Origin: Endomicrobium sp.
Lineage (GTDB): Bacteria > Elusimicrobiota > Endomicrobiia > Endomicrobiales > Endomicrobiaceae
Length of the DNA: 64,000 nucleotides
NCBI GenBank assembly: GCA_031262585.1
Contig: JAISHK010000008.1
Span: 62,001 to 126,000, forward strand
Direction: 5' to 3'
Made by a program: the position numbers and the translations under genes. The notes beneath the pieces are model-generated. The model was not told the origin of the DNA. It did no database searches and was given only the letters and a program-made list of their open reading frames with translations. Shown in pieces: positions 9,609-20,347 of the stretch. Within the stretch, counting starts at the first letter, position 1. The number at the start of each line of letters is the position of its first letter.

Positions 9609-9968
9609 TTATTTCCCATATTGCACATTTTTTACAACATCAATCAATTTCCTAAACGTTAAAGCATCATTAACAGCAATTTCAGCAAGCATTTTTCTAT
9701 CTATTGCAACATTAGCTTTTTTAAGACCAGAAATAAATTTACTATAAGAAATTCCTTCACTTCGCACAGCTGCATTTAAACGAACTATCCACAAAGTCCT
9801 GAAATTCGATTTATTATCCTTCCTACCGGTATAAGCGTAATTAAGAGATCGTTCTACCTGTTGTATAACCATTCTCCAACGATTCTTCTTTGTTGCATAA
9901 GATCCTTTTGCAAGTCTAAATATTTTCTTCTTTTTTTGCCTCGTATATACAACGCTTTTCGTACGCAT
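9609..9968 (-). CDS. rplT: 50S ribosomal protein L20
   Basis: Small basic 23S rRNA-binding protein needed for early 50S assembly. The N-terminal arm RQKKKKIFRLAKGSYATKKN and the core RTLWIVRLNAAVR are typical, and 119 aa is the normal length. ATG at 9966-9968 has a strong AGGGGGAT site. It is third in infC-rpmI-rplT, 30 bp after rpmI. In several bacteria L20 represses this operon by binding the infC leader; the long leader seen here would allow that, but I cannot show an L20 site. Confidence 0.97.
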   Translation of the reverse strand: MRTKSVVYTRQKKKKIFRLAKGSYATKKNRWRMVIQQVERSLNYAYTGRKDNKSNFRTLWIVRLNAAVRSEGISYSKFISGLKKANVAIDRKMLAEIAVNDALTFRKLIDVVKNVQYGK

Positions 9969-9998: not shown

Positions 9999-10199
9999 TT
10001 AAAAATTATAAGGCATTATTTTTCTTATAACCTTAACATCTGAACTTGCAACTATAAGAGCCTTCCTTGATTTTCTGTTTTGATTTCCAGAATCACCAGT
10101 CATAAGATGTCTTTGTCCTGGTTTTTTATATTTGATCTTTCCCGTTCCTGTAATCCTAAAGCGCTTTTTAGCTCCATTATGTGTTTTAATTTTAAGCAT
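9999..10199 (-). CDS. rpmI: 50S ribosomal protein L35
   Basis: Short basic ribosomal protein of 66 aa. MLKIKTHNGAKKRFRITG and GQRHLMTGDSGNQNRK match L35. The frame stays open for six further codons upstream to an ATG at 10217, but family members begin at the MLKIKTH methionine (10197-10199). The upstream stretch contains a run of eight G, probably part of the translation signal, although it lies only about 1-2 nt from this ATG. It sits between infC and rplT in the standard order. Confidence 0.95.
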   Translation of the reverse strand: MLKIKTHNGAKKRFRITGTGKIKYKKPGQRHLMTGDSGNQNRKSRKALIVASSDVKVIRKIMPYNF

Positions 10200-10240: not shown

Positions 10241-10762
10241 TTATCTTGCCTTTTTTTTAGGAACTAATATTAAAAATATCCTATTCCCCATTGAAAAAGC
10301 TTTTCCTTCTGACTCTGCAATATCAGATAAAGCTTCTTTCACTCTATCCATAATTTTAATTCCTAAATCTTTATGTTGCAATTCTCTACCAGAAAACATT
10401 GCGGTAAGTTGAACTTTATCACCATCTTCAATAAATCCTCTTGCATGTTTGATTTTCACTTCTAAATCATGTCGCCCAATGCGAGGCCTTATTCTAATTT
10501 CTTTGATATGAGAAACTTTTTGCTTTTTTTTTGCTTCTTTTTCTTTTTTATTCATTTCATATTTAAATTTGGAAAAATTAGTTATTTTACACACAGGCGG
10601 AATTGCCTGCGGAGAAATCTCAACCAAATCTAAATTTTTCGATTGCGCTCTGGACAAAGCATCAGCAATTTTTAATATTCCTACCATTTCTCCATCAGAA
10701 TCAATAAGTCTCACTTCAAACGCTTTGATAAACTTGTTTATACGAATTTTTTTGTTTTCTAT
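10241..10762 (-). CDS. infC: Translation initiation factor IF-3 (probable ATA start)
   Basis: IF-3 binds the 30S subunit and polices start-codon choice. The N domain (RINKFIKAFEVRLIDSDGE) and the C domain (IRIRPRIGRHDLEVKIKHA, then a lysine-rich end) are complete. The frame is open from an ATG at 10837, but that extension is not IF-3-like and overlaps a terminator-like hairpin, so I reject it. The most likely start is ATA at 10760-10762, with AGAGGGG 5 nt upstream; ATT at 10778-10780, 10 nt from GGAGAGG, is the alternative. Rare AUU/AUA/AUC starts are a known autoregulatory trait of infC. Followed by rpmI and rplT. Confidence 0.93.
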   Translation of the reverse strand: MENKKIRINKFIKAFEVRLIDSDGEMVGILKIADALSRAQSKNLDLVEISPQAIPPVCKITNFSKFKYEMNKKEKEAKKKQKVSHIKEIRIRPRIGRHDLEVKIKHARGFIEDGDKVQLTAMFSGRELQHKDLGIKIMDRVKEALSDIAESEGKAFSMGNRIFLILVPKKKAR

Positions 10763-10800
10763 GGTTACCCCTCTTGGAATTGACTCTTGTCCTCTCCAAT

Positions 10801-10839
10801 TTTTAAATAAAAATCGGAGCAGATATAAAATCCGCACCG
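10801..10839 (-). terminator. Attenuator-like hairpin in the infC leader
   Basis: On the minus strand CGGTGCGGAT and ATCTGCTCCG form a 10-position stem (one T-T mismatch, one G-T pair) around the 5-nt loop TTTAT, followed at once by ATTTTTATTT. This is the most GC-rich hairpin I noticed outside genes in the window. It lies about 100 nt after the predicted transcription start and about 50 nt before the chosen infC start, the right place for leader attenuation of infC-rpmI-rplT. Confidence 0.65.
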
Positions 10840-10944
10840 TTATAAAACGTAAATTACATCATAAAATACTCTTAATTATAACTTATTCTATAAAAAACAA
10901 AAGACAAAAACGAATCATGACAACTACTTTTATCGCTGAGCATG

Positions 10945-10974
10945 ATTGTACAATAAATAACATATTCATGTCAA
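10945..10974 (-). promoter_or_regulatory. Promoter of infC-rpmI-rplT
   Basis: TTGACA (10969-10974) and TACAAT (10945-10950) are spaced by 18 nt on the minus strand. The implied leader is about 175 nt and contains the attenuator-like hairpin. Confidence 0.7.
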
Positions 10975-11091: not shown

Positions 11092-11484
11092 CTACTGCGC
11101 AAGTGCAAATTTGCTAACCCCCACTTTTTTAGCTTTATCAATAAACTGAATTATACTATCATACGGGACATTTTCTTCACTTTTTATAACCACAGATTTA
11201 TCCGGACTTGAAATTATCAAATTTCTAACAATATTTTCAATATTAGAATCTATAACTTTTTCACCATCTATACAAATATTCCCATTCTCTAAAATCAAAA
11301 TTTCTACACTTGAATTTTCCGTATTATTAGAAATTATGGTCTTGGAAACATTAACATCTATACTCTGTTGCAAAGCCGGCATTGATATTATAAATATAAT
11401 AAGCAATACAAGCACAACATCTGTAAACGGCGTTATATTTATGTCTGATTTAATGGAAATTCTATTTCTAATGCATTTACTCAT
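11092..11484 (-). CDS. exbD: ExbD/TolR-family biopolymer transport protein
   Basis: Partner of ExbB/TolQ in a proton-driven motor that energises outer-membrane processes. There is a short cytoplasmic N-terminus, then one membrane segment at about residues 20-36 preceded by the conserved INITPFTDVVLVLL, whose Asp carries protons in this family. A periplasmic domain ends near residue 130. The gene overlaps exbB by 8 bp, so translation is likely coupled. No TonB, TolA or receptor gene is nearby, so whether this is an Exb- or Tol-type motor is undecided. Its presence implies an outer membrane. Confidence 0.9.
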   Translation of the reverse strand: MSKCIRNRISIKSDINITPFTDVVLVLLIIFIISMPALQQSIDVNVSKTIISNNTENSSVEILILENGNICIDGEKVIDSNIENIVRNLIISSPDKSVVIKSEENVPYDSIIQFIDKAKKVGVSKFALAQ

Positions 11485-19189: not shown

Positions 19190-20347
19190 CTAAATTTTTT
19201 CAAATAGTTTCTCTGCATATTGTCTTGCCCACAAATCCGCTTGATAAAAAGAATTTAAGGACATATTTTTTAAAATTTCATGATTTTTCATTGTTTTTTC
19301 AACAATTTTAACAATATCTGTAAACTTTATTCTTTTATTTAAAAAAGCCTCTACTGCCACCTCATTCGCAGCATTCATCACGGCAGGCATGGTATAACCT
19401 TTATTTGCGGCAAAATATGCAAACTTTAAACAAGGAAATTTATTAAAATCAGGCTTATAAAATTCCAATTTCTCAACTTTCCAAAGACTCAAAGATTTAA
19501 TATTAGATGACATTCTTTCAGGATAAGTTAAAGCATATTGTATAGGAAGTTTCATATCAGGATTAGAAAGCTGTGCTATAACAGAACCATCAATATACTC
19601 TACTAATGAATGTACTATAGACTGTGGATGAATGACAATTTCAATTTTATTTATAGGGATTCCAAAAAGAATAGAGACTTCAATAGCTTCAAGTCCCTTA
19701 TTCATAAGTGTTGCACTATCAACAGTTATTTTCTTACCCATTTTCCATGTAGGATGATTCAAAGTTTGTTCTACTGTTATTTTGGAAAAATCTTTACTAT
19801 ATTTATAGAATGGACCACCAGAAGCAGTAAGTATTATTCTCTTTATTTGTGACTTTTTTTCACCATTACAACACTGAAATATAGCTGAAAGCTCACTATC
19901 AACAGGCAAAATAGAAACCCCCATCTTGCAAGCGAGGTTGACTATATAATACCCCGCACCTACAATAGATTCTTTGTTTGCTATAGCTATATTCTTTTTA
20001 GTCTTTATGGCCGCCACTACAGATTTTAAACCAATAGCTCCCACAATGGACACAAGAACCATATCTACGATGGAAAGAGTGACAATTTTTTCAAGACTTT
20101 CATTTCCACTATAAACAATAGTTTTAATATTATTTAAAATGCACCATTTTTTTAAATTTTCAGCGGCTTCAAAATTGCTAACTGATACCATTGCAGGTTT
20201 AAATTTTTTTATTTGGGATTTCAAAACTTCTACATTAGAATTTACGGCAAGACCTTCAACCTTTATATATCCCCTCATTTTTGAAATCACATCAAGAGTT
20301 TGCCTACCTATTGAACCCGATGAGCCTAAAATTATTATTCTTTTCAT
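19190..20347 (-). CDS. dxr: 1-deoxy-D-xylulose 5-phosphate reductoisomerase
   Basis: Second MEP-pathway enzyme, making MEP from DXP with NADPH. The NADPH site GSSGSIGRQTLDVI is at residues 8-21. Metal and substrate motifs are ANKESIVGAG and PVDSELSAIFQ in the middle, and MGKKITVDSATLMNKGLE. The C-terminal helical domain is intact (385 aa). ATG at 20345-20347 has GTGAG just upstream. The 12-bp gap after cdsA suggests one transcript. Confidence 0.97.
   Translation of the reverse strand: MKRIIILGSSGSIGRQTLDVISKMRGYIKVEGLAVNSNVEVLKSQIKKFKPAMVSVSNFEAAENLKKWCILNNIKTIVYSGNESLEKIVTLSIVDMVLVSIVGAIGLKSVVAAIKTKKNIAIANKESIVGAGYYIVNLACKMGVSILPVDSELSAIFQCCNGEKKSQIKRIILTASGGPFYKYSKDFSKITVEQTLNHPTWKMGKKITVDSATLMNKGLEAIEVSILFGIPINKIEIVIHPQSIVHSLVEYIDGSVIAQLSNPDMKLPIQYALTYPERMSSNIKSLSLWKVEKLEFYKPDFNKFPCLKFAYFAANKGYTMPAVMNAANEVAVEAFLNKRIKFTDIVKIVEKTMKNHEILKNMSLNSFYQADLWARQYAEKLFEKI

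Follow-up and report, generated by a model that had tools for sequence, protein, structure and literature searches.

The window analyzed here, a stretch of 64,000 nucleotides of an Endomicrobium sp. genome (assembly GCA_031262585.1, contig JAISHK010000008.1), carries on its minus strand, according to Pfam matches, the genes exbB, exbD, infC, rpmI, and rplT in this order. The infC gene (10241..10762, 173 amino acids plus the stop codon) encodes translation initiation factor IF3 (IF3_N, 2.6e-29; IF3_C, 2e-28); rpmI (9999..10199; PF01632) and rplT (9609..9968; PF00453), both also on the minus strand, encode ribosomal proteins L35 and L20, respectively, the latter being the presumed ligand of the infC leader. 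Upstream of infC and on the same strand, exbD ends at 11092, and downstream of rplT lie open reading frames that we take to be PheS- and PheT-like. The genome comprises 936,649 bases in 11 contigs; Candidatus Endomicrobiellum/Endomicrobium is described in PMC11257099 as a group that includes symbionts of termite-gut flagellates.

The region upstream of infC was read in 38 same-genus copies (36 genomes, this genome included), 28 out of 29 sister-genus genomes, six genomes of the order, and a sample from outside it. G097, whose infC is divided across contig ends, is left out of all family counts, and G017b, truncated by a contig end, is left out of the IF3 tree. The N-terminal domain of IF3 is present in 53 out of 59 relatives and in 271 out of 294 genomes of the phylum; counted from the codon aligned with the proposed start (position 0), the protein is mostly 171–177 amino acids long in relatives. 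Two different infC copies with leaders occur per assembly in G017 (L010/L051) and G021 (L008/L038), which more probably reflects mixed bins than a true duplication. The IF3 proteins of three very small genomes, L055 (G030), L053 (G016), and L052 (G033), form long branches outside the genus core and deviate from the PPVC motif.

The earlier note had proposed a promoter upstream of infC, and the comparison agrees with it. The −35 box TTGACA (10974-10969) and the −10 box TACAAT (10950-10945) are separated by 18 nt and together match the consensus at 11 out of 12 positions (10945..10974, minus strand), which would place the transcript start near 10938. The pattern scan alone does not exceed chance (16 sites in the scanned stretch vs. 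13.6 expected); conservation is more telling, as a site with 10–12 matches out of 12 lies upstream of infC in 57 out of 62 sequences, this genome included, vs. 90 out of 1240 shuffles. With at least nine matches, the promoter is seen in 29 out of 37 genus sequences (this genome included) and 23 out of 25 sister-genus sequences.

Between the promoter and infC, folding and covariation reveal the hairpin that the earlier note had called terminator-like: a stem at 10839-10815 with one U.U mismatch, followed by a U-run at 10813-10809 (10809..10839, minus strand). Its predicted energy is −11.9 kcal/mol (z −5.1; none out of 200 shuffles as stable), compared with −17.5 and −21.1 for the hairpins of two relatives. 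Taken by itself, the scan for terminator patterns does not exceed chance (one found, 0.7 expected). Pairing of the hairpin, the loss of which in relatives would have spoken against the proposal, is retained there in 95.4% of cells, and all nine pairs of the terminator show changes in both partners. The element as first described, consisting of a promoter, a hairpin, and a start codon, proved to be larger, since it also contains an L20-type 5′ domain and further stems. The leader as a whole (10950-10730) folds with z −2.95, three out of 200 shuffles being as low.

The 5′ domain (10881..10932, minus strand), a drifted form of the L20-leader type, is composed of hairpin 1 (10925-10913), helix 2 (10911-10909 with 10883-10881), and an inner pair (10904-10889). 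It was recognized by R1, a covariance model built on 29 relatives with this genome excluded, whose match here (10932-10807) scores 37.0 bits, the lowest of 61 leaders and within the range of chance matches (approximately 32–42 bits). In a filtered search, the infC leader is the only R1 match in this genome at E ≤ 0.001, and it lies exactly in place. A second match at 19797-19665 (20.5 bits), inside a 385-amino-acid frame (19190-20347), was dismissed as chance. Sixteen out of 18 model pairs are standard here, and in the 5′ domain three pairs that are C–G in most relatives are U–A, which argues that the fold has been retained. At the L20 site itself, two consecutive C–G pairs, each of which is C–G in 56 out of 60 distinct rows, have become U–G and U–A, and only four out of six pairs of the antiterminator are standard, with two adjacent central mismatches.

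Compared with the Rfam family RF00558, the element shares its position before infC-rpmI-rplT on the same strand, and the terminator with a U-run; the gathering cut-off is not reached, and the L20-type site of two G–C pairs and an AA dimer and the antiterminator pairing are absent. No RF00558 match to this leader was obtained up to E 5, and the best RF00558 match in the genome lies away from infC. The families matched at a lax threshold (Vg1 ribozyme, MIR7696, and others) were set aside as chance. With the two G–C pairs of the L20 site and the antiterminator match lost, working L20 control is doubtful here, and the leader, judging from its sequence, is a worn, diverged attenuator of the L20-leader type that has kept most of its fold.

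In 32 out of 51 held-out sources, this genome included, R1 matched at full length with E ≤ 6.2e-6. We aligned 61 leaders (R1 rows included): 30 from the genus (this genome among them), 24 from the 28 sister-genus loci, six out of six from the order, and one from the class; loci without a leader remained outside this alignment, although inside the held-out search. In the alignment, which was fitted to the structure and thus leans towards pairs, 96.5% of cells pair and both partners change in 15 out of the 18 pairs, none out of 500 shuffles being as high, and pairing is far above that of slid registers. The terminator and the first hairpin supply most of the covariation; the L20-site helix, CCUU/AAGG, hardly varies, the sole double change being that of this genome. 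The antiterminator, formed by the loop CGUCCC with the 5′ arm of the terminator, is paired in 94.5% of cells (two out of 500 shuffles as high), with only two pairs changing on both sides, a number equaled by 119 out of 500 shuffles; its conservation is the less firm part of the leader evidence. Beyond the order, 11 genomes give R1 matches of approximately 32–42 bits, presumably by chance.

RF00558 alone is indecisive, because its gathering cut-off (58.7 bits) is reached in none out of 59 genomes and matches of 16–34 bits occur at many other places, which in some genomes equal the scores of leaders (up to 34.5 bits in G055). Full-length sub-threshold matches do lie just before infC at 11 out of 18 loci and, in a second set having four loci in common with the first, at 11 out of 14, with scores of 25–38 bits, and up to 41 bits in the search of 59 genomes. 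Taking position, sequence, and covarying pairs in relatives into account, the leader is, as far as sequence comparison can tell, a descendant of an L20-leader-type attenuator before infC-rpmI-rplT. We found no L20 leader reported for Elusimicrobiota in the open-access literature, among the matches listed.

Closer to the gene, a stem with the arms UUGGAG/UUCCAA and inner GAC/GUC (10774..10799, minus strand) abuts the Shine-Dalgarno sequence by its 3′ arm; it is supported by covariation and folding (−7.7 kcal/mol, one out of 200 shuffles as stable). In 31 genus copies, 143 out of 155 cells are standard pairs, vs. at most 135 in 5000 shuffles, in a count that permitted two registers and hence leans towards pairs; seven of the 38 genus sequences were skipped (one for a contig start, six without the U-tract/A-tract). 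Pair 4 is standard in all 31 (G–C in 15, A–U in eight, U–A in six, G–U in two), and several sister genera follow the same plan with different sequences, e.g., GCAGG/CCUGC. The mean pairing of the last five bases exceeds that of shuffled sequences in the genus (0.57 vs. 0.32, 37 sequences), in sister genera (0.59 vs. 0.29, 25 sequences), and in the order (0.44 vs. 0.29, six sequences). Here it is 0.22 vs. 0.32 in shuffled sequences, and the stem is outcompeted in folding by a hairpin of a U-tract and an A-tract, CUCCGAUUUUU/AAAAAUUGGAG (10794..10819, minus strand; −9.9 kcal/mol). Per sequence, the shuffle test is mixed: at most three out of 60 shuffles are as high in 26 out of 68 sequences, and 32 out of 60 in this genome. 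The U-tract followed by the A-tract is visible in genus sequences, and their hairpin is mutually exclusive with the 3′ arm of the terminator and with the stem; this palindrome could couple read-through to translation, and the conserved stem may help the ribosome to use a weak start.

The likely start of infC, judged from the position aligned in relatives, is ATA (10760..10762, minus strand) rather than ATG or GTG. It is preceded at 5 nt by the Shine-Dalgarno sequence AGAGGGG (10768..10774, minus strand), which is read directly here and conserved in the genus, mostly as AGAGGAGGA or AGAGGGGGA. This start, favored by the earlier note, held up: the sequence AGA GGG GTA ACC ATA GAA AAC of this genome aligns with the genus consensus, mostly AGA GGA GGA NNN GTC/GTA GAA AAC, so that ATA corresponds to GTC or GTA of relatives. 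Position 0 holds GTC in 25, GTA in 12, and ATA in one (this genome) of the 38 genus copies; ATA in 14, GTC in 12, GTA in one, and ATC in one of the 28 sister-genus copies; and GTA in five and ATA in one of the six copies of the order. The preceding codon −1 varies freely in the genus (I, V, A, T, D, L, or F).

The choice of codons at position 0 differs from that at ordinary valines. Among 488 downstream valine codons in the genus, 209 are GTT, 171 GTA, 90 GTG, and only 18 GTC; the excess of GTC at position 0 corresponds to a Fisher p-value of 2e-22 if the sequences were independent, which overstates it, as they are related. Neither GTT nor GTG occurs at position 0 in the 38 genus copies. Mapped onto the tree of 71 IF3 sequences, the codon has undergone no fewer than 16 changes, and its third base no fewer than 13, each an exchange of A and C; these counts are rough minima, as the tree is weakly supported (12 out of 66 inner branches starred). 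AUU, AUG, GUG, GUU, or any codon with G or T as the third base is found at position 0 in none of the 71 sequences, and all four third letters occur at three other valine positions of the same set (71, 71, and 68 sequences). Thus, on comparative evidence, in the family and order the probable infC start codon is confined to AUA, AUC, GUA, and GUC, so that a codon other than AUG, GUG, or UUG occupies the homologous place, as in autoregulated infC genes with a non-canonical start. A GUC or GUA start of infC was not found in the open-access literature, among the matches listed. Outside the family, 48 named loci (L148–L195) were judged by eye, three of them being unreadable; at 43 out of the 45 readable loci, ATT, ATA, or ATC stands at a fitting place after a Shine-Dalgarno sequence, and the start is unclear in L175 and L187. 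In L175, an acidobacterial record, GTC and ACG are among the in-frame codons between the stop that follows the Shine-Dalgarno sequence and the conserved N-terminus. Some relatives in the class and phylum, e.g., G046, G055, and G042, start with ATG or GTG instead.

The leader and the start codon have different fates in the genus. A leader match is absent in seven out of 37 testable genus copies, this genome being among the 37 (G010, G016, G020, G027, G028, G030, and G033; G011 was not counted, as too little of its contig precedes infC). These assemblies measure 0.2–0.6 Mb in six cases and 0.8 Mb in that of G010, whereas G001 and G006, of 0.7 Mb, keep the leader; as the assemblies are incomplete, their size is only a guide. 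All seven leaderless copies retain GTA or GTC at position 0, so that control through the start codon seems to persist longer than control by L20. Immediately upstream of infC, four of the leaderless reduced genomes (L053, L041, L055, and L052) carry a tRNA-Val (TAC) gene, with which infC perhaps shares a transcript.

Two other starts have to be weighed against ATA. ATT at 10780-10778, behind GGAGAGG, was the second candidate of the earlier note; it is present, with an AGGA-type match upstream, and AUU is given as the infC start codon of Escherichia coli (PMC5472188) and Bacillus subtilis (PMC6097659). However, at the corresponding position, codon −6, genus and sister copies show 30 different codons, including two stops (in G008 and G092), codon −4 is a stop in G016 and G131, and the ATT of this genome lies inside the 3′ arm of the conserved stem, all of which makes it a highly improbable start. 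The frame is also open up to 10837, and 39 out of 64 testable copies, this genome among them, have some canonical codon upstream in frame, so that translation might begin at GTG 10837 or another such codon, with the residue at position 0 an ordinary internal one for which the exchange of valine and isoleucine is conservative. Yet in 25 of the 64 copies (six out of 37 in the genus, 19 out of 27 in sister genera) no ATG, GTG, or TTG stands between the upstream stop and position 0, the third base at position 0 avoids T and G, no Shine-Dalgarno match was found for GTG 10837, and this codon (10837-10835) lies inside the 5′ arm of the terminator. It is also the codon that had been described as an ATG inside the hairpin. 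The suspicion that an N-terminus starting there would be wrong is supported: upstream codons, including the MRILYLL-type extension whose conservation would have counted against it, show no conservation at the protein level except at the Shine-Dalgarno sequence. We find an upstream start hardly credible and retain ATA.

As for the leader, exbD lies upstream on the same strand, the L20-binding pairs are gone here, and the RF00558 score is below the cut-off, so that the hairpin might be a plain terminator of the exbB-exbD transcript with no link to L20. This is quite improbable, given that a conserved promoter separates exbD from the hairpin and that, across the order, the 5′ domain and the hairpin form one element before infC. 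Conversely, the leader could still bind L20, if its helices are kept by compensating drift towards AT and L20 reads the fold rather than G–C pairs: eight out of nine 5′-domain pairs are standard, three being U–A where most relatives have C–G, and a part of the A-rich internal loop is retained. Against this stand the loss of the two consecutive G–C pairs described in PMC7247131 as common to L20 sites, the two central mismatches of the antiterminator, and an alignment that, fitted to the structure, is biased towards pairs; we regard retained binding as unlikely. The suggestion that L20 acts on the hairpin thus names the right candidate for the lineage, while working control in this species is doubtful.

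Taken together, an ATA start, IF3 feedback, an eroded L20-type attenuator, and a stem at the Shine-Dalgarno sequence form the explanation that we consider very probable. Translation of infC would begin at ATA, a codon poorly matched to the initiator tRNA and expected to be discriminated against by IF3, so that IF3 would repress its own synthesis, as extrapolated from work on E. coli and Streptomyces. If the B. subtilis system is a guide, bound L20 would favor the terminator, and in its absence the 5′ arm of the terminator would base-pair with the loop CGUCCC, a pairing that is conserved in relatives. In this reduced genome the L20 half seems to have drifted, and with the recognition pairs and the antiterminator lost, the terminator is probably a fixed leak. 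We incline, by a little, to the further joint reading that the start wanders among four codons (AUA, AUC, GUA, and GUC) with U and G avoided as the third base, that the covarying stem enables its use, and that L20 control is shed before IF3 feedback; most copies would then be mismatched to the initiator tRNA at both the first and the third base, as GUC and GUA are by the pairing rules.

If this is true, shrinking symbiont genomes lose the L20 attenuator while IF3 feedback through the start codon stays. The lineage, with its repeated switches among four weak codons, would then serve as a natural experiment that tells which codons are open to feedback by IF3, and the leader would show the erosion of such a switch in a shrinking genome and extend attenuators of the L20-leader type beyond the phyla that the cited papers name. 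Gene callers limited to ATG, GTG, and TTG will misplace or extend the IF3 start in this lineage.

According to PMC5472188, non-canonical starts are repressed by IF3, as is the gene of IF3 itself; by analogy, as the earlier note had proposed, infC here is most likely controlled by its own product through a start other than AUG. Similarly to infC of E. coli and B. subtilis (AUU) and of Streptomyces (AUC) (PMC5472188, PMC6097659), the gene appears to have a start other than AUG, GUG, or UUG behind a Shine-Dalgarno sequence, but with AUA here, mostly GUC or GUA in relatives, and AUU in none of 71 sequences. Streptomyces sigR, as presented in PMC5472188, also starts with GTC, the use of which is held down by IF3; here, GUC or GUA would sit on infC itself, closing the loop. 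The Deltaproteobacterial L20 r-leader candidate resembles the leader in having two G–C pairs and an AA dimer as an L20 mimic (PMC7247131) but has another scaffold, and Elusimicrobiota are not mentioned in the main text of that paper. The closest likeness is to the B. subtilis leader (RF00558), where L20 is reported to stabilize the terminator before infC and whose distribution is given as narrow and limited to Firmicutes (PMC6097659). Both lie before infC-rpmI-rplT and combine a 5′ hairpin with a CCC loop, the CCUU/AAGG helix, and a terminator (PMC6097659, PMC10931766), and relatives yield the full-length sub-threshold Rfam matches. In contrast to its B. subtilis counterpart, the Endomicrobium leader scores below the cut-off, has a shorter 5′ hairpin stem, belongs to another phylum, is worn or lost in reduced genomes, and has an extra stem that abuts the Shine-Dalgarno sequence.
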